Origin: an uncultured Chloracidobacterium sp.
GTDB lineage: Bacteria > Acidobacteriota > Blastocatellia > Chloracidobacteriales > Chloracidobacteriaceae
DNA length: 51,721 nt
Assembly (NCBI GenBank): GCA_937966115.1
Contig: CALCKX010000114.1
Span: forward strand, 1 to 51,721
Reading direction: 5' to 3'
Shown: positions 31,807-40,645 of the stretch, piece by piece
How the letters are laid out: every line of letters starts with the position of its first letter
Numbering within the stretch: position 1 is the first letter of the stretch
Program-made: the position numbers and the translations under genes
Notes under the pieces: generated by a model
What the model was told of the DNA's origin: nothing
Databases searched by the model: none
The model's input: the letters and a program-made list of their open reading frames with translations, nothing else

Positions 31807-33915
31807 ATGAGTCATCCCGGAAGCCGTGAGACCGTGGCCTACTGGGCCATTTGCCTGCTCATCCTGGCCGCTTTGGTGGATTCCCAACTGATTGGCGCCA
31901 TTGCTCCGAGCATCGCGTCCGGCATTGGCTCTTCCAAAGCGGCGGTGGCCCAGAGCGCGGGCGCTTATTCGCTAGCCAATGCCGCGACGGCCTTTTGGCT
32001 GGTTGGCCCGGGACGCGAGCTGCGTCCGACGCGCGGCCTGCCGCTCGCGGCGCTGCTCGCCCTGGCGGCGGCGGTCCTGGCCGCCCTCGCCACGAACGTT
32101 TGGGTATTTTACGCGGCGCGCGCCATCGCCGGATTTTCGGGCGGCTTGGTCTCGGCGTTGGCGATTGCGGCGCTGGCCAACGCTTCGAGTTACGCGGCGC
32201 GCGGGGTGCAGATGAGCGGCGTGGCGGCGAGCTACTTCCTCGCGCCGGTCATCGGCGTGCCGCTGGGCGCGTTTCTGGTTGGGCAGTTCGGCTGGGCGGC
32301 GGCGTTCTGGTTCGCGGCGCTGTCCGTCGCCGTGGCGGGCGGGCTGGTCATGCTCTTTCCGCTCCCGCAACCGCCGCCCGCGTCGTCGCCGGCGAGCGCC
32401 GGCGCGGGCGGCGGCAGTCTCCGCGATCTGTGGCGGATGGCGACGCGCTCGCGCTCGACGCGCCTGGCGCTGATTGGCGCGGCGTTTGTCTCCGGCGGAC
32501 TCGTCGGCTTTTCGGCATTTCTGGGGACGTGGCTATCCGACGCCTTTCGCGCCGATGAGTTCCGCATCGGGCTGATGTTCGGCGTGACGGGCGTTGGCGC
32601 GGTCATCGGCAGCTTTGGCGGCGGCAAGCTGGCTGACCGCTACGGCAAGCGCCAGGTCGCGGTCGTCGCCAGCGGCTGGATGGCGGCGGGGCTGCTGCTC
32701 GTGCCGACCTTCGCCTGGACGTGGGGGCTTTACCTCGCGGTGGCTTTCGCGGCCCTGTGCGCCGCCGCGCGCGTCGCCCCGCTTCAGGCGCTGACCACCG
32801 AGCTTGTCGCGTCGCCGGAGCGGCCGTCCTTCATCGCTCTGCGCAACGGGTTCTCGCAGTTGGGCATTGTCGCCACGGTTGCCGGCGCCGGCGTCGCCTA
32901 TCAAGCCGGCGGCTTTTTGGCGGTCGCCGCCGTGTGCGCCGGGGTCACGGCGGCGGCCTGGGCTTGTCTGCGCGGCATTGACGATCCGCAAATGGGGCGA
33001 GCTTCGGGCGAAACCGTCAAGCCGCGGCTCTGGGGTCTCGCGCTGCGGCGCGTCATCGCGTGGCTGCTGGTCGTCGGGCTTGGCTTGCCCTATCTCGCCA
33101 GCGTCGCCGTGACCAAGGCCCGCACGCGCCCCGACGAGCGTCGCCGGACCGACACGCCGGCGGCGCTGGGCGCCCAGTATGAAGACGTGACGTTCGAGTC
33201 GTCCGGCATCCCGCTCGCGGGCTGGTACTTGCCGGCCCGGACGCGCCCGGTCACGATTGTCATCACCCATGGGTTGTTTCGCTCGCGCTATGAAACGCTG
33301 GAGCGCGGCGTGGCGCTGTGGAAGCTGGGCTATGGCGTGCTGCTTTATGACCTGCGCCGGCATGGCAAAAATCGGGGCGAGTTTTCAACTGTTGGCTATG
33401 TCGAGCGTCGCGATGTCAAGGCGGCCATCGAGTTTGTCCGCCAGCGCGCGCCCTATGACCGCGTCGTGTTGCTGGGCGTTTCCATGGGGGCGGCGGCAAG
33501 CCTGCTTGCGGCGGCCGAAGCGCCCGAAGTCACCGCTGTGATCAGCGACAGTTGCTTTCGCTCATTTCGGGACGCCGTGGCGAATGATGTTCGCTATCTT
33601 GGGCTGCCCCAGTGGCCGGCGGCGCCCATCCTGACCTACGCGACGGCTTGGCGAATGGGCTTCGCCGTCGGCGACTTCGATCTCGAGCGGGCGGCGGGGC
33701 GGATTGCCGCGCCGATTCTCTTCATCGGCGGCGGGCGCGACCGGCGCATGCCGGTTGAAACCGCGCTGGAACCGCTTTACCGTGCCGCCCAGCATCCAGC
33801 CAAGCGTAAGCTGGTCATCGCGGGGGCCACCCACGGGGAGGCGTATCTTGTCTCGCCGCAGCTTTACATCGAAGCTGTAGACGGCTTTATTCAGCAGGCG
33901 CTCATGCTACCCTAG
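31807..33915 (+). CDS. Fusion of an MFS transporter and an alpha/beta hydrolase
   Basis: One uninterrupted 702-residue frame. Residues about 10-390 are an MFS transporter (about twelve helices; GKLADRYGKRQ is the conserved central loop motif). A further membrane helix follows (about 414-436, ALRRVIAWLLVVGLGLPYLA), then a hydrolase from about 458: GWYLPARTRP, VITHGLFRSRYETLE (oxyanion region), LYDLRRHGKN, nucleophile S559 in GVSMGAAASL, probable Asp in GGGRDRRMP and His in AGATHGEAYLV. With thirteen helices and a cytoplasmic N-terminus the hydrolase would lie in the periplasm, an inference. No frameshift separates the halves. Confidence 0.88.
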   Translation: MSHPGSRETVAYWAICLLILAALVDSQLIGAIAPSIASGIGSSKAAVAQSAGAYSLANAATAFWLVGPGRELRPTRGLPLAALLALAAAVLAALATNVWVFYAARAIAGFSGGLVSALAIAALANASSYAARGVQMSGVAASYFLAPVIGVPLGAFLVGQFGWAAAFWFAALSVAVAGGLVMLFPLPQPPPASSPASAGAGGGSLRDLWRMATRSRSTRLALIGAAFVSGGLVGFSAFLGTWLSDAFRADEFRIGLMFGVTGVGAVIGSFGGGKLADRYGKRQVAVVASGWMAAGLLLVPTFAWTWGLYLAVAFAALCAAARVAPLQALTTELVASPERPSFIALRNGFSQLGIVATVAGAGVAYQAGGFLAVAAVCAGVTAAAWACLRGIDDPQMGRASGETVKPRLWGLALRRVIAWLLVVGLGLPYLASVAVTKARTRPDERRRTDTPAALGAQYEDVTFESSGIPLAGWYLPARTRPVTIVITHGLFRSRYETLERGVALWKLGYGVLLYDLRRHGKNRGEFSTVGYVERRDVKAAIEFVRQRAPYDRVVLLGVSMGAAASLLAAAEAPEVTAVISDSCFRSFRDAVANDVRYLGLPQWPAAPILTYATAWRMGFAVGDFDLERAAGRIAAPILFIGGGRDRRMPVETALEPLYRAAQHPAKRKLVIAGATHGEAYLVSPQLYIEAVDGFIQQALMLP

Positions 33916-33977: not shown

Positions 33978-34607
33978 ATGATCTCTCTTCGCACTGGAAC
34001 TTTGACCTTGGTTGCGCTGCTCGGCCTCGGCCCGGTCGCGGCGCTCCCCCCCGCGACCCTGGCTTCGCCGATGGTTCAAGAAGGCATGAGCATGGGTAAC
34101 GACGACCCGCGCAAGGCGACGACGATTCAGACCACCTCCGCCAGGCTAGGCAACGTGGCTGATGCCGTGATGGTGCGTTACTTGAATCTGCCGTGGGGGC
34201 CGCAAACCTTCGGCTACATTGAAAACGGCGGCAACCAGTTTTACAGCCTGCGCACCTGGCCGATCGCGCATTTGACGCTCAAGACGCGCGCGAAGTTTTT
34301 CGGTCGCGACTTCGAGCCGGGCGATTACGTCCTGACCCTCGTTCCCAAGGGGCTCGCCCCGCGCATGGGCATGCAGGTGCGCAGCTTCCAGCCGAGCGGC
34401 GACAGCGGCACGTTCCTCGTGCCCGGCAACGTCTTCACGGAAACGCCCAACGGGCCCATCGTGGCCTCGCGTCCCATCGAGTTCAAGCCCGGCGCGCCGC
34501 AAAGCGACGCGATGCGGGTTTCGCTCGTTTCGAAGAAGAACCTGGTTGAAATGACCATCAACTACGGCGACCGCTCTTTTACGGAAAAGCTCACGATGGT
34601 GAAGTAG
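33978..34607 (+). CDS. Exported protein, possibly DUF2911-like
   Basis: 209 residues with a signal peptide (LTLVALLGLGPVAALPPATLA). The mature part is predicted beta-rich: SARLGNVADAVMVRYLNLPWG, PIAHLTLKTRAKFFGRDFEPGDYVLTLVPKG, then VFTETPNGPIVASRPIEFKPG and a final TINYGDRSFTEKLTMV strand. The GDYVLTLVPKG and closing strands resemble DUF2911 proteins, but the match is weak and I would not rely on it. AGGAAG precedes the ATG. It stands first in a run of same-strand exported proteins (33978-40645). Confidence 0.75.
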   Translation: MISLRTGTLTLVALLGLGPVAALPPATLASPMVQEGMSMGNDDPRKATTIQTTSARLGNVADAVMVRYLNLPWGPQTFGYIENGGNQFYSLRTWPIAHLTLKTRAKFFGRDFEPGDYVLTLVPKGLAPRMGMQVRSFQPSGDSGTFLVPGNVFTETPNGPIVASRPIEFKPGAPQSDAMRVSLVSKKNLVEMTINYGDRSFTEKLTMVK

Positions 34608-34718: not shown

Positions 34719-35108
34719 ATGCCTGACGCCAATGAGCCGTTGATTCCGACCGCCGGCAATGCGCCAACCAACGCCTATTCCATGCTCGAGCCGCGCATGA
34801 AGAAAGTCTATGGCGCGTACTACAAAGAGCTGTACTACACGCCGGAGCGGCGCGTTCTCAATCCGAAGATTCAAGAGCTGATTTCCATCGCGGCCTCGCT
34901 GGTGGCCAAGTGCGAGGGCTGTCTTGACGGCCACATGAAGAAAGCCCTCGAGCTTGGCGCGACCAAGGAGGAAATCAGCGAGACGATATGTATCGCCGCG
35001 GCGATCAACGCGGCGGCCATGATTGACTTGTCGGATCGCTGCGCGGAGCGGCTCCAGCTCAATCATTTCCCCTCCGCGCCGGCGGCGGCGACTTCGGGCG
35101 CGTCATGA
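34719..35108 (+). CDS. Carboxymuconolactone decarboxylase-family protein (AhpD-like)
   Basis: All-helical protein of 129 residues. The redox centre typical of AhpD-like members is present: C65-E-G-C68 followed by H72 (LVAKCEGCLDGHMKKALELGA), with the usual preceding Glu in the IQELISIA helix and the ATKEEISETICIAAAINAAA helix after it. The CxxC plus His supports peroxidase or disulfide-type activity over decarboxylation. GGGGGAG lies upstream of the ATG, and no signal peptide is seen, so it is cytoplasmic. Its stop overlaps the start of the esterase gene (ATGA, 35105-35108). Confidence 0.92.
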   Translation: MPDANEPLIPTAGNAPTNAYSMLEPRMKKVYGAYYKELYYTPERRVLNPKIQELISIAASLVAKCEGCLDGHMKKALELGATKEEISETICIAAAINAAAMIDLSDRCAERLQLNHFPSAPAAATSGAS

Positions 35109-36079
35109 AGATGCGCGTCATGAAGATGAAGCGGGCGCTGAAGGTCGCCTCCCTGTGGATGGCCGGCTGGGTTGGTCTGGCGGGCGGCGCCCCGCTGGCC
35201 GCGGCGAGCGGCGGGGGGCTGCCGGATGGCGCGGTGGAATACGGAGCGTTTCACTCGGACAGCCTGGGGCGCGACGTGCCCTACGCCGTGTCGCTGCCGC
35301 CTTCCTATGCCGCGTCGCCGGAGCGCCGTTACCCGCTGGTCATTTTCCTGCATGGAATGTTCAACGACGAGCGCGACTGGGAAGCGCGCGGCGTGCAGGC
35401 GGCGCTCAATGCCGTCCGCGCGAAGGGGCAGGTTGGCGAGTTCATCGTCGCTATTCCGCGCGGCGAAAACAGTTTCTACATCAATGCCAAGCAGGGCGAC
35501 CGCTACGAGGACGCCATTGCGCGGGATTTTCTGCCCTTCATCGAGCGCCGCTACCGAACGCTTGGCTCGCGCGAGGGGCGTCTGATTGCCGGCATCTCGA
35601 TGGGCGGCTACGGGGCGCTCCTGATGGCGTTCAAGCATCCGACGCTCTTTTGCGGCGTGGCGGCCCACTGCGCCGCGATCTTTACGGACCTGCCGCGTCC
35701 GCCACAGTCCCCCGACGACCGCATCGGCGCGTGGCGCTACGGCCTGGCGTCCAAGCTCTATGGCGATCCGCCGGACGCCGAGTTCTTCAACGCCCACAGC
35801 CCGTTGTCAGTCGCGCCGGCGAAAGCCGAAGCCCTGCGGCGGCTGCGCATCTACTTCGATGTTGGCTCGGAAGACCGCTACCGCTTTGACATTGGCAATC
35901 AGCGGCTGCACGAAACGCTTGAAGCGCTCAGGGTGCCGCACGAGTTCACGCTCGCGCCGGGCGGGCACGGCTGGGCGTTTCTCGTGGCGCGCAGCGAGCC
36001 GGCCTTCGCTTTCTACTGGCGGGCCTTGTCGCCGGCTGTTCAGCGCCCGTCGAGCAAGCGACTGGAGGAAAGGTTATGA
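35105..36079 (+). CDS. Exported alpha/beta-hydrolase esterase (esterase D/PF00756 type)
   Basis: 324 residues. The N-terminus MKMRVMKMKRALKVASLWMAG leads into a signal peptide. The fold begins with GRDVPYAVSLPPSYA, the family entry (polypeptide of esterase D, PHB depolymerase and S-formylglutathione hydrolase relatives). FLHGMFNDERDWE is the oxyanion loop. The nucleophile is S165 in AGISMGGYGALL. The Asp is probably in VGSEDRYRFD and the His in GGHGWAF. It should act on a small ester in the periplasm. The ATGA overlaps on both sides with the AhpD-like and ChaN-like genes indicate translational coupling. Confidence 0.9.
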   Translation: MKMRVMKMKRALKVASLWMAGWVGLAGGAPLAAASGGGLPDGAVEYGAFHSDSLGRDVPYAVSLPPSYAASPERRYPLVIFLHGMFNDERDWEARGVQAALNAVRAKGQVGEFIVAIPRGENSFYINAKQGDRYEDAIARDFLPFIERRYRTLGSREGRLIAGISMGGYGALLMAFKHPTLFCGVAAHCAAIFTDLPRPPQSPDDRIGAWRYGLASKLYGDPPDAEFFNAHSPLSVAPAKAEALRRLRIYFDVGSEDRYRFDIGNQRLHETLEALRVPHEFTLAPGGHGWAFLVARSEPAFAFYWRALSPAVQRPSSKRLEERL

Positions 36080-37044
36080 CTGCGCCAGCGCGCCAGGGCC
36101 ACGCCTGGCGAGCGGCCCTGCTGGCCGCGCTCCTGGGCTGGCTGGGAGGTTCAATCGAGCCAATGCATGGACAGACCCCTGGACAAACCGCGAATCCCCC
36201 TTACCGTCTTTACAAGCCGGATGGCCAGCCGGCGACGCTCGATGACGTGGCGAGCGCGCTGGCGCGCGCCGAGGTGGTCTTCATCGGCGAATCCCACGAC
36301 GACCCTGGCGCGCACGCCCTGCAGCTCGACCTCCTGCGCGCCGCCCAGGCGCGCTACGGCGCGGACGCGGCGCGCCGGCGGCAAGTCGCGCTCTCGCTGG
36401 AAATGTTCGAGCGGGACGTCCAGCTTCCGCTGGATGAGTATCTGGCGGGGCTCATTCCTGAAAATCAGTTTCTCGCCTGTAGTCGGCCGTGGAACAACTA
36501 CCAGAGCGACTACCGCCCGCTGGTCGAGTTCGCCAAGGCGCAGCGCATCCCGGTGGTGGCCGCGAACCCGCCGCGCCGCTATGTCAACCTGGTCGGGCGC
36601 GAGGGGCGCGAGGCGCTGAAGAAGCTTTCCGAGCCGGCCCGCGCCTTCCTGCCGCCGCTGCCCTATGGGGCGGCTTCGGCGGCTTATGAGGCCAAGTTTC
36701 AACGCCTGATGTCGGATGCGCATAGGGCGGACAGGGAAGGCGAGCGCCGGATGCCAAGCCTGGCGCGCCTGCTCGATTCGCAGTCGCTGTGGGACGCCGG
36801 CATGGCGCATGCCATCGCTGAAACGCTGGCGAGCGTGCCGGAGGCGCTGGTGATTCACATCAACGGTCGCTTCCATAGCGAGGAAGGCCTGGGCATCCCA
36901 GAGCATCTCGCCGCGTACCGCAAGGGCACCCGCATGCTGATTGTCACCGTCGTGTCCGACGCGGAAAACCCGGAAGTCCTCAATGTGGCTCGTTACGGCA
37001 AGCTCGGCGATTTCGTGGCGCTGAGCGTCAAAGCGACCCCGTGA
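36076..37044 (+). CDS. ChaN-family (PF04187) haem-binding-like protein
   Basis: 322 residues with a signal peptide (AALLAALLGWLGGSI), so exported. The family opening is VVFIGESHDDPGAHALQLDLL, followed by SLEMFERDVQLPLDEYLAG, and VVAANPPRRYVNLVGREG with RPWNNYQSDYRPLVEFAKAQ in between. The last third contains VIHINGRFHSEEGLGI, also conserved. ChaN of Campylobacter is an iron-regulated haem-binding lipoprotein; a lipobox Cys is not evident here, so I call it periplasmic. It overlaps the esterase stop by 4 bases and is 17 bases before the first GGT. Confidence 0.9.
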   Translation: MTAPARQGHAWRAALLAALLGWLGGSIEPMHGQTPGQTANPPYRLYKPDGQPATLDDVASALARAEVVFIGESHDDPGAHALQLDLLRAAQARYGADAARRRQVALSLEMFERDVQLPLDEYLAGLIPENQFLACSRPWNNYQSDYRPLVEFAKAQRIPVVAANPPRRYVNLVGREGREALKKLSEPARAFLPPLPYGAASAAYEAKFQRLMSDAHRADREGERRMPSLARLLDSQSLWDAGMAHAIAETLASVPEALVIHINGRFHSEEGLGIPEHLAAYRKGTRMLIVTVVSDAENPEVLNVARYGKLGDFVALSVKATP

Positions 37045-37061
37045 GGGCATTTTAGAAAGTC

Positions 37062-38831
37062 ATGGTCGCTCGTTTTCAAACGCCTTTTCAAATGCCGCCG
37101 CGTCGGCCGCTGCCTGCCCTGCGGATGCTTCTCGCCGCGTTGTGCGCGGCAGCGCTCCTGACGCCCGCGACGCGCGGGCAGGTGGCGCGGCAACCCGTCC
37201 GCGCGCGCAGGGCCATAGTCGCCTCGTCCAGCGCCTTCGCCTCGCAAGTCGGCGTGGAGATTCTCCGCCGAGGCGGCAACGCCGTGGACGCCGCCGTGGC
37301 GGTCGGGCTGGCGCTGGCCGTGACCTTTCCGGTCGCGGGCAATCTGGGCGGCGGCGGCTTTATGCTCATTCGGATGGCCGACGGGCGGATGGCGGCCATT
37401 GACTACCGGGAAACCGCCCCGGCGGCGGCCCGGCGCGACATGTACCTCGATGCCGACGGCAATCATCGGTTGGAAAAATCCACTCTGGGCTATGCGGCGG
37501 TCGGCGTTCCCGGCACGGTGGCCGGCTTTGACTTAGCCCTGCGCAAGTACGGTCGGCTCAAGTGGGCGCAGGTCGTCGCGCCGGCGCGACGACTGGCGCG
37601 CGAGGGCTTTCCGGTCAGCTATGCGCTGGCGCAGGGCCTGCGGATCGCGCAACGGCTGGCGGGCGATCCCGAAAGTCGCCGAATTTTCCACCGCGACGGC
37701 GATTATTATGCCGAGGGGGAAATCTTTCGCCAGCCGGACTTGGCGGCGACGCTGGAGCGGCTGGAGAAACGCGGCTCGCGCGAGTTTTACGAAGGCGAAA
37801 CCGCGCGGCGCATCGCCGCGGCGATGCGCGCCAACGGCGGTTTCATCACGCTGGATGACTTGAAGCGATACCGGCCAGTCGAGCGCGAGCCGCTGCGCGG
37901 GACGTACCGGGGCTATGACATCGCGACGTTTCCGCCGCCCAGCTCCGGCGGCATCATCTTGCTCAACGTTCTCAATCAGTTGGAAGGCGACGATTTGGCG
38001 GCGCTCGGGCCCGGGTCGTCTGAGGCGAGCCACTTGCTGATCGAGGCTTTGCGGCGAGCCTTTGCCGACCGCGCCGCGCTGATGGGCGACCCGGATTTCA
38101 CGACGATGCCGGTTGAGACCTTGATCTCCAAGGAATATGCCAAGGAGCGGCGGGCGACAATTGACCTGCGCCGCGCCACGCCGAGCGCCACCGTGCGGGC
38201 CGGGATGGAGGCGCCCGCGTCGGAGTCGGAGAAGGTGTCGGAGAAGGCGGAAACGACGCACTACGCCATTGTGGACGCTGACGGCAACCTTGTGACGAAC
38301 ACCTATACGCTCAACGGTCCCTACGGCTCTGGCGTCACCGTCCCCGGCACGGGCGTGTTGCTCAACAACGAAATGGACGACTTTGCGGCCAAGCCTGGCT
38401 CGCTAAACGCTTTTCAGTTGATTCAAGGCGAGGCCAACGCGATTGCGCCAGGGAAGCGGCCGCTATCGTCAATGACCCCGACCATTGTGTTCAAGGACGG
38501 AAAGCCTTGGCTGGCCCTGGGGAGTCCGGGCGGCCCAACCATTATTTCCACGGTCATTCAGACGCTCATCAACGTCATTGACCATAATATGAGTTTGCAG
38601 CAGGCGATTGACGCGCCGCGCCTGCATCACCAGTGGATGCCGGATGTCGTGATGTGGGAGCCCTATGGCCTGTCGCCGGATACGCGCCGCGCCCTCGAAG
38701 CCAAAGGGCATCGGCTGGAGGCCACGCCGCGCTATAACGGCGACGTCGAAGCCGTCCTGATTGACGCGACGGGCGCGCGGCTGGGGGCGTCCGACCCGCG
38801 TAACCCCGATGCCCGGGCGATTGGCTATTGA
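37062..38831 (+). CDS. ggt: Gamma-glutamyltransferase (GGT)
   Basis: Periplasmic enzyme that cleaves gamma-glutamyl bonds, for example in glutathione, and transfers the glutamyl group to water or amino acids. 589 residues. A signal region (MLLAALCAAALLTPATRGQ) precedes GGNAVDAAVAVGLALAVTFP and GNLGGGGFMLI, then LRGTYRGYDIATFPPPSSGG. The self-processing nucleophile is T398 in KAETTHYAIVDADGN, marking the split between heavy and light chains. PLSSMTPTIVFKDGKPWLALGSPGGPTI and LQQAIDAPRLHHQW complete the light chain. It starts 17 bases after the ChaN-like gene. An alternative internal Met would shorten only the N-terminus. Confidence 0.95.
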   Translation: MVARFQTPFQMPPRRPLPALRMLLAALCAAALLTPATRGQVARQPVRARRAIVASSSAFASQVGVEILRRGGNAVDAAVAVGLALAVTFPVAGNLGGGGFMLIRMADGRMAAIDYRETAPAAARRDMYLDADGNHRLEKSTLGYAAVGVPGTVAGFDLALRKYGRLKWAQVVAPARRLAREGFPVSYALAQGLRIAQRLAGDPESRRIFHRDGDYYAEGEIFRQPDLAATLERLEKRGSREFYEGETARRIAAAMRANGGFITLDDLKRYRPVEREPLRGTYRGYDIATFPPPSSGGIILLNVLNQLEGDDLAALGPGSSEASHLLIEALRRAFADRAALMGDPDFTTMPVETLISKEYAKERRATIDLRRATPSATVRAGMEAPASESEKVSEKAETTHYAIVDADGNLVTNTYTLNGPYGSGVTVPGTGVLLNNEMDDFAAKPGSLNAFQLIQGEANAIAPGKRPLSSMTPTIVFKDGKPWLALGSPGGPTIISTVIQTLINVIDHNMSLQQAIDAPRLHHQWMPDVVMWEPYGLSPDTRRALEAKGHRLEATPRYNGDVEAVLIDATGARLGASDPRNPDARAIGY

Positions 38832-38926
38832 GCGTCGCGGCGGGCGAGCTTGCGCTCGTCCCTCCGCTTGGCGGCGTCTTCGGGAGGGTGACGGCGCGGA
38901 TCAGGCGGCGCGGCGGGAGTTGCCGG

Positions 38927-40645
38927 ATGTCGATGAAACGGATGTGGGCTTTGGCTTTGAGCGTTGGGCTGATGGCGGCGAGCGTCGGCGCGACGCGCCC
39001 GGCGGCGTCCGACCGCATTACGGGACGCGCCTTCGCCACGCGCTCGGAAGTCATCGCCCGCAATGGCATGGCTTGCACGAGCCAGCCGCTGGCGACACAG
39101 GTCGCCGTGGACATTCTCAAGCGCGGCGGCACGGCGGTGGATGCCGCCATTGCGGCCAATGCGCTGCTGGGGCTCGTCGAGCCGACCGGCTGCGGGATCG
39201 GCGGCGACTTATTCGCGCTGGTGTGGGACCCGAAAAGTCAGCGTCTCCACGGCCTCAACGCCAGCGGGCGGTCGCCGCGGCGGCTGACGCTGGACGAGTT
39301 CCGGCGGCGTGATCTCAAGCGCATTCCATCATTCGGGCCGTTGCCCGTCACCGTGCCGGGCTGCGTGGATGGCTGGTTTGCGCTCCACGCCCGATTCGGG
39401 TCGCTCCCGATGCCAGAGCTGCTCGCGCCGGCCATCGCCTACGCCCGCGAGGGCTTTCCAGTATCGGAACTCATCGCTTACTACTGGGAGCGAAACGCGG
39501 CGGCGCTGGCGCAATTTCCCAATGTGCGCGAAGTCTATGCGCCGGGTGGCCGAACGCCGCGCAAGGGCGAGCTGTTTCGCAACCCGCGCCTGGCGACGAC
39601 GCTGGAAAAGATCGCCGCCGGCGGGCGCGACGCGTTTTACAAGGGCGAAATTGCCGGCGTCATCGCCGATTTCATCGCCCGGCAGGGCGGCTTTCTCGAC
39701 CGCGACGACCTCGCCGCGCACGCGTCTGAGTGGGTGGAGCCGATTTCAACCAATTACCGGGGGTATGACGTATGGGAGCTTCCGCCGAACGGTCAGGGGC
39801 TGGCGGCGCTCCAGATGCTGAACATTCTGGAGGGGTACGACTTGGCTGCGCTCGGCTTCGGAAGCCGCGAGCACATTCACTATTTCGTCGAGGCCAAGAA
39901 GCTCGCCTTTGAAGACCGCGCGAAATTTTACGCCGACCCGGCGTTCGCCAAGGTTCCAGTGACAGAGCTGCTTTCCAAGGCGTACGCCGCCGAGCGCCGG
40001 AAGCTGATTCATCCGCAGCGGGCCGGAGCGCGGTACGAAGCCGGCGCTCCGGCGCTGGGGGCGGGCGACACGATTTACCTGACGACCGCCGACCGCAACG
40101 GCATGATGGTGTCGCTTATCCAGAGCAACTACCGCGGGATGGGGTCGGGCATGGTTCCGGACGGGCTGGGCTTCATGCTACACGACCGAGGCGAGATGTT
40201 TGCGCTCGAGGATGGGCACGCCAACGCCTATGCGCCGGGGAAGCGTCCGTTTCACACGATCATTCCGGCTTTTGTCACCAAGGATGGCCAGCCGTTTCTG
40301 AGCTTCGGCGTCATGGGCGGGGGCTTTCAGCCCCTCGGCCACGCGCAAATCCTCATCAATATCATTGATTTTGGGATGAATATCCAGGAAGCCGGCGATG
40401 CGCCGCGCATTGACCACCAGGGTTCGTCGGAGCCGACCGGCGAGCGGGCGACTGGCAGCGGAACGGTGACACTGGAAACCGGCTTTGCCTACGAGGTCGT
40501 GCGGGAGCTTGTCCGGGCGGGGCATCGCGTCGGCTTTGGGGTCGGGGACTACGGCGGCTATCAGGCGATTCGGCGGGATGCCGCGCAGGGCGTCTATTAC
40601 GGCGCGTCGGAATCGCGCAAGGATGGGCAAGCGGCAGGCTACTGA
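38927..40645 (+). CDS. Second gamma-glutamyltransferase-family protein (GGT-like)
   Basis: A GGT paralogue of 572 residues starting at the ATG at 38927, which has GGGAG seven bases upstream and a signal peptide (WALALSVGLMAASVG). The TTG start at 38828 would overlap the first GGT and is less likely. Family motifs: LKRGGTAVDAAIAANALLGL, GCGIGGDLFALV, YDVWELPPNGQGLAALQMLN, with the predicted nucleophile T382 in GAGDTIYLTTADRNG, and NIIDFGMNIQEAGDAPRIDH. The nucleophile context is DTIY rather than TTHY. This fits the distant GGT/acylase-like group, so its substrate may differ. It is separated from the first GGT by 95 bases. Confidence 0.9.
   Translation: MSMKRMWALALSVGLMAASVGATRPAASDRITGRAFATRSEVIARNGMACTSQPLATQVAVDILKRGGTAVDAAIAANALLGLVEPTGCGIGGDLFALVWDPKSQRLHGLNASGRSPRRLTLDEFRRRDLKRIPSFGPLPVTVPGCVDGWFALHARFGSLPMPELLAPAIAYAREGFPVSELIAYYWERNAAALAQFPNVREVYAPGGRTPRKGELFRNPRLATTLEKIAAGGRDAFYKGEIAGVIADFIARQGGFLDRDDLAAHASEWVEPISTNYRGYDVWELPPNGQGLAALQMLNILEGYDLAALGFGSREHIHYFVEAKKLAFEDRAKFYADPAFAKVPVTELLSKAYAAERRKLIHPQRAGARYEAGAPALGAGDTIYLTTADRNGMMVSLIQSNYRGMGSGMVPDGLGFMLHDRGEMFALEDGHANAYAPGKRPFHTIIPAFVTKDGQPFLSFGVMGGGFQPLGHAQILINIIDFGMNIQEAGDAPRIDHQGSSEPTGERATGSGTVTLETGFAYEVVRELVRAGHRVGFGVGDYGGYQAIRRDAAQGVYYGASESRKDGQAAGY

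Follow-up and report, generated by a model that had tools for sequence, protein, structure and literature searches.

The window analyzed here is a stretch of 51,721 nucleotides from an uncultured Chloracidobacterium sp. (GCA_937966115.1, contig CALCKX010000114.1), and its forward strand carries, at positions 31807-33915, a frame in which an MFS transporter is joined to an alpha/beta hydrolase. Natural fusions are a strong clue that two proteins belong to one pathway, and the locus raises the question of whether this frame is a genuine single gene and what a transporter and a hydrolase might accomplish in one chain. The frame encodes 702 residues without any internal stop, and orthologous single frames were recovered from 20 Blastocatellia genomes. 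Translation, Pfam and AlphaFold2 confirmed the reading of an earlier note, made from the DNA letters, that this single frame combines a twelve-helix transporter with a hydrolase. On the fused protein, Pfam identified MFS_1 (E-value 2.9e-39, 135 bits against a cutoff of 33.4), Hydrolase_4 (PF12146; 4.9e-16, 59.2 bits against 27) and Abhydrolase_1 (PF00561; 9.9e-12, 45.5 bits against 25.8), with Peptidase_S15 also matching the hydrolase half above its gathering score. The AlphaFold2 model of the full-length protein, built with the window protein and 14 homologues as input, reached a mean pLDDT of 81.6 and a pTM of 0.80, values that carry no confidence measure for the relative placement of the domains. 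It comprises twelve MFS helices, of which the last two run together as a single continuous helix, followed by a separate helix at residues 408-436 and the alpha/beta hydrolase, which attained a pLDDT of 91.5 when modelled alone. The additional helix proposed in the earlier note at about residues 414-436 is thus present, although its span in the model is longer than had been given.

All parts of the gene lie on the forward strand. The MFS domain (residues ~7-389, positions 31825-32973) was delimited by Pfam MFS_1, the helices of the AlphaFold2 model, invariant columns and the structural match to SotB and MdfA. It is followed by a linker that is basic near its end (residues ~390-407, positions 32974-33027), recognized from the sequence and the fused homologues, and by transmembrane helix 13 (residues ~408-436, positions 33028-33114), supported by the modelled helix, its hydrophobicity, its charged flanks and the N termini of split homologues. 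A conserved juxtamembrane segment with the pattern TKA-TRP-ER-R-DTP (residues ~437-451, positions 33115-33159), defined by columns that are invariant in alignments of fused sequences and partly retained in split homologues, leads into the hydrolase domain (residues ~442-702, positions 33130-33912), which was assigned from Pfam, the match to structure 5g59 and invariant columns. Across the fused homologues the linker region is 20 to 78 amino acids long and in frame every time. The linkers of L030, L032, L038 and L039 (Pyrinomonadaceae and related MAGs) are long, variable and charged, with 65-78 amino acids before helix 13, and some of these long-linker proteins also possess a long TM6-TM7 loop.

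The joining of two genes by a frameshift, the first weakness that the earlier note had named, or by chance is excluded since one frame is kept in 20 genomes and both halves are under purifying selection; an assembly artefact is ruled out on the same grounds. The architecture occurs as one open frame in 20 of the 162 Blastocatellia genomes searched, sixteen of them giving one full-length match and the other four (G092, G095, G096 and G097) a single ORF with a longer linker. Each of the six other genomes of the genus has a full-length fused frame (79-89% identity), as do other families of the class, and identity ranges from 46 to 89% in an alignment of 13 fused sequences. Among the named records with the fused gene are Chloracidobacterium sp. 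CP2_5A and several MAGs labelled Blastocatellia, Pyrinomonadaceae or Acidobacteria. When the window gene was compared with five congeners, dN/dS amounted to 0.11-0.19 for the MFS half, 0.15-0.33 for the linker and helix 13, and 0.06-0.10 for the hydrolase half. The second named weakness, a hydrolase domain not conserved together with the MFS, does not apply either, the homologues of the two halves being fused, adjacent or co-occurring. The hydrolase is unlikely to be translated separately, starting at an internal ATG, as 11 of the 15 fused homologues lack a methionine between residues 391 and 445 (ATG starts only). A viral or plasmid origin was rejected: viral contigs contained no relative, and among plasmids there were low-identity matches to the hydrolase half alone, all of them covering less than 80% of the query. 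A scan for promoters and terminators returned no promoter match and terminator matches below the shuffled mean. One record with a fused gene 63-64% identical to that of the window (L029) is titled Actinomycetota bacterium while its scaffold name reads WN_Acidobacteria, and the title is probably a mislabel.

The transporter half has the 12-TM MFS fold, as evidenced by MFS_1, the twelve helices of the model and the structural match to SotB. The closest solved structures in a profile search were NorA (E-value 1.4e-23), SotB (2e-23) and VMAT1 (1.4e-21), and the best fold matches were SotB (VIA Z 42.8, rmsd 2.5, 368 residues aligned) and MdfA (Z 40.2). SotB, NorA, MdfA and VMAT are proton-coupled exporters of the DHA1 type. 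Asp25 in TM1 and Arg105 in TM4 are invariant in fused and unfused MFS homologues and, judging from their positions, presumably correspond to the conserved TM1 and TM4 charges of these antiporters, the latter being the motif B arginine; a motif-A-like sequence of the C-terminal half, G-G-x-x-x-D-x-x-G-K, occupies residues 272-281. Unlike the window protein, DHA1 drug:H+ antiporters have no hydrolase domain, and none of the curated NCBIfam DHA1 subfamily cutoffs was reached (Bcr/CflA 36.8 against 200.9, Cmx/CmrA 44.2 against 400), scores so far below the cutoffs that we call this half DHA1-like and not a named DHA1 member. On these similarities it is probably a proton-driven, DHA1-like transporter. 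Since SLC37A4, FLVCR and SPNS2 fall within a few Z units of the best matches, the direction of transport is not fixed by the fold alone.

The hydrolase half appears catalytically complete, in agreement with the earlier assignment of Ser559 as its active serine: the G-V-S-M-G elbow places the nucleophile at Ser559, and the triad Ser559/Asp645/His676 is intact, being invariant in 13 and in 15 fused sequences and in the alignment with unfused forms. The oxyanion-strand motif His488-Gly489 is likewise invariant in the fused set. By sequence and by fold, the nearest solved relative is the Pf2001 lipase/esterase of Pyrococcus furiosus (5g59), which is not fused to a transporter (profile E-value 2.3e-38; PDB match of the hydrolase half 5.9e-20; VIA Z 29.2, rmsd 2.7, 244 residues aligned), and the identity of about 25-26% is too low for its specificity to be transferred. 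Feruloyl esterases and monoglyceride lipases are more distant relatives in both sequence and structure. The best reading of this half is a serine alpha/beta hydrolase of the Hydrolase_4/S33 type, predicted to act as an esterase or lipase.

Outside the fused set, the two halves are found as separate genes. In six genomes of one Blastocatellia family (f3), as well as in G230, which belongs to another class, they are adjacent and share the order and strand of the fused form; the pairs overlap by 4 nt in L013 and L016, are a few bp apart in L019 and are separated by 63 bp in G230. In the seventh f3 genome (G044) the MFS and the hydrolase lie on different contigs, with the MFS at a contig edge, and in further acidobacterial classes both genes reside unlinked in the same genome. 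G029, considered as a possible fused gene with one internal TGA, proved to contain two separate ORFs with a gap of a few bp. The 19 fused forms sampled were all placed on one side of a single branch, both in the tree of the MFS half (40 rows; support 100/100) and in that of the hydrolase half (38 rows; 100/98). This is consistent with a single fusion; the event most likely took place once, within the Blastocatellia. The MFS of G047 (L022, 1515-2768) sits at the end of a long branch inside the fused MFS clade and lacks an adjacent hydrolase, which may reflect secondary loss of the hydrolase or long-branch misplacement. In the G303 hydrolase (L099) the middle part translates as X, the stored genome being masked with N there.

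The split homologues also bear on the topology of the fused protein. A 12-helix MFS protein ends in the cytoplasm, and helix 13 would carry the chain across the membrane. Unfused hydrolases have a counterpart of helix 13 at their own N terminus, in most cases with a basic N-side. In the f3 split hydrolases this helix is preceded by a strongly basic run (e.g. RWRRWLKR), and by its sequence features this N terminus is a signal anchor of the classical N-in/C-out kind; the hydrolases of some other classes start with at least two helices, the last of them preceded by a basic stretch. Helix 13 therefore looks like an inherited signal anchor, homologous to that of the unfused hydrolases, and for this reason the hydrolase most likely faces the periplasm, a well-supported reading that sustains the location suggested in the earlier note. 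Every fused form is hydrophobic in this region (19-residue Kyte-Doolittle mean 1.65-2.95), and the 15 residues before it average 4.7 K+R against 0.2 D+E. The 21 residues after it also lean to the basic side (4.7 K+R against 3.3 D+E), so that the positive-inside signal is not clean; this weakens the argument from charge and leaves that from homology unaffected. The basic character of both flanks, together with the invariance of Pro428 within the helix in the alignment of fused sequences, would suit an interfacial or re-entrant helix 13 and a cytoplasmic hydrolase acting on its substrate before export or after import. Such an arrangement is very unlikely given the hydrophobic stretch common to all fused forms, the strongly basic N-side and the homology to an N-terminal signal anchor.

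To what extent the two families belong together was addressed in 396 acidobacterial genomes, searched with one MFS and one hydrolase profile, each spanning fused and unfused forms. The profiles derived from genomes already known to contain both genes, which biases the search toward co-occurrence, and the lines for a specific match (E-value of about 1e-80 or lower for the MFS, lower than 1e-85 for the hydrolase) were set after the score distribution had been seen. On this basis 31 genomes contained the MFS and 24 the hydrolase, with 22 containing both. The MFS thus accompanies 22 of the 24 hydrolases against a background of 31/396 (Fisher P ~1e-26), and 14 of 16 when genomes with the fused gene are removed (P ~6e-18), the significance of both figures being inflated by shared ancestry. 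A fairer count, made at the level of taxonomic families with a denominator of 87 read off the genome numbering, gives 10 of 11 (P ~3e-11). The two exceptions are G351, an 84% complete genome, and G495, in which a partial MFS match lies at a contig end. Because the split genes are nearly always found together, both proteins probably act on one compound. The MFS is without a specific hydrolase in 9 of its 31 genomes, and these, together with G047, indicate that it may have a hydrolase-independent role. Unlinked copies in several classes lie near housekeeping genes (mutS, a TsaD-family gene, lepA), and the neighbours of such copies, which also include a trypsin/PDZ protease and a hemN-like gene, gave no functional clue.

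That genes are unlinked in several classes and that the linker is long and variable would be compatible with mere co-localisation, in which the two activities are unrelated and the fusion came about neutrally when the stop codon separating two neighbours was lost. This explanation appears unlikely when set against the continued co-occurrence of the unfused genes, the retention of the fusion across several families and the fact that the unfused hydrolase already has its own anchor helix, so that no new anchor was needed. The earlier note's suggestion of transport coupled to cleavage of an ester- or amide-linked substrate gains the co-occurrence of the two gene families in its favour, and the coupling itself may reasonably be proposed.

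The explanation to which we lean is an exporter-like pump and a tethered periplasmic esterase or lipase that share a substrate and are coupled at the periplasmic face, the direction of transport being less certain than the rest. A DHA1-like, probably proton-driven MFS would sit in the inner membrane with an esterase/lipase-type serine hydrolase tethered to its periplasmic face, an arrangement that would have originated by merger of neighbouring MFS and hydrolase genes into one frame, with the signal anchor of the hydrolase turning into helix 13. Most likely, the MFS would export an ester-containing or acylated compound, which the hydrolase would cleave on arrival, in the manner of an exporter working with a periplasmic siderophore esterase. 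Both the periplasmic location and the handling of one compound by the two halves are what we infer from the comparisons above. For export followed by hydrolysis, IroE offers a functional analogy: this periplasmic siderophore esterase shares a pathway with the MacAB efflux pump (PMC7403778). This is not evidence of a siderophore system here; IroE/Fes and the efflux components are separate proteins, the PF00756 esterase encoded near the fused gene only weakly matches an enterochelin esterase model, and no siderophore locus came to light.

Among published fusions, the closest precedent that we found is LplT-Aas, an MFS and a partner lipid enzyme that are adjacent in many bacteria and apparently form one ORF in some (PMC11416262). 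It resembles the present system in pairing an MFS with an adjacent or fused enzyme and is a precedent for transport coupled to an enzymatic step. Aas, however, is an acyltransferase at the cytoplasmic membrane surface, whereas the C-terminal domain of the window protein is an alpha/beta hydrolase and not an acyltransferase/acyl-ACP synthetase partner of this type, apparently periplasmic and joined through an extra transmembrane helix. With this precedent, the lipase-like hyperactivation of Pf2001 on hydrophobic supports (PMC2967836) and the presence of monoglyceride lipases among the sequence and structural relatives of the hydrolase, one may envisage lipid remodelling, in which the MFS, like LplT, would flip a lipid or lysolipid and the hydrolase tethered to it would serve as a periplasmic lysolipase or monoacylglycerol lipase. 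We regard this as quite unlikely, seeing that the first matches of the MFS profile are drug and sugar exporters and that the conserved neighbours are not lipid genes.

Fusion of a transporter to an enzyme is a known theme, and no described example of the form that unites an MFS with an alpha/beta hydrolase was found: a narrow open-access literature search yielded no paper on such a protein, in accordance with the earlier remark that no characterized case was known. It is quite possible, if somewhat short of an even chance, that these genes constitute an undescribed system of the Acidobacteriota, in which a DHA1-like pump and a co-occurring anchored periplasmic hydrolase process one compound across the inner membrane, the 13-helix Blastocatellia protein being the fused version and an AhpD-like protein a recurrent partner. 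An unassignable MFS and an unassignable hydrolase, found together in about ten acidobacterial families, thereby become a testable pair with a predicted topology, and the fused protein provides a model, in one chain, of how transport may be coupled to cleavage in the periplasm.

Downstream (3') of the fused gene and on the same strand follow genes for a 209-aa protein, an AhpD/CMD-family protein, a PF00756 esterase, a ChaN-like protein and two gamma-glutamyltranspeptidase-like proteins, several of them with 4-nt overlaps. The first (positions 33978-34607), assigned from the neighbour cluster and synteny, has a hydrophobic N terminus typical of secretion and, in 14 genomes from several families, is encoded next to the fused gene; the window copy had no Pfam or NCBIfam match, and one homologue showed a sub-threshold match to DUF2911 (E-value 0.02). 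The AhpD/CMD-family protein (positions 34719-35108), identified by PF02627, the TIGR00778 AhpD core and synteny, contains a CxxCxxxH motif, and its gene also adjoins the unfused MFS in G135, G331 and G230. The esterase gene (positions 35105-36079), recognized by Pfam and synteny, overlaps the AhpD/CMD gene by 4 nt and encodes a protein with a hydrophobic N terminus, whose weak NCBIfam matches include feruloyl esterase and enterochelin esterase models. These three genes recur beside the fused gene in several Blastocatellia families, and the conserved same-strand neighbourhood suggests an operon, which names no substrate.

This second esterase as a conserved neighbour, its weak match to a feruloyl esterase model, the resemblance of the fused hydrolase to monoglyceride lipases and feruloyl esterases and the ability of MFS proteins to run either way would fit cleavage followed by uptake, the next most likely variant after export followed by cleavage. 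The hydrolase would cut an ester or amide nutrient (a phenolic ester, an acylglycerol or a blocked peptide) and the MFS would take up the product by direct channelling. We consider it rather unlikely, as the closest characterized relatives of the MFS by profile and structure are mostly exporters, and the CMD neighbour has the AhpD CxxC motif, unlike an aromatic-pathway decarboxylase. A fusion of the CMD and PF00756 esterase genes, suspected from their shared cluster, was not borne out, Pfam giving nothing but the esterase in the four longer ORFs tested. The remainder of the cluster, at positions 36076-40645 of the window, consists of a gene for a ChaN/Tiki-family protein and two tandem gamma-glutamyltranspeptidase-like genes, the second assigned by its similarity to the first; their arrangement is operon-like, with 4-nt overlaps, and is conserved in the genus.
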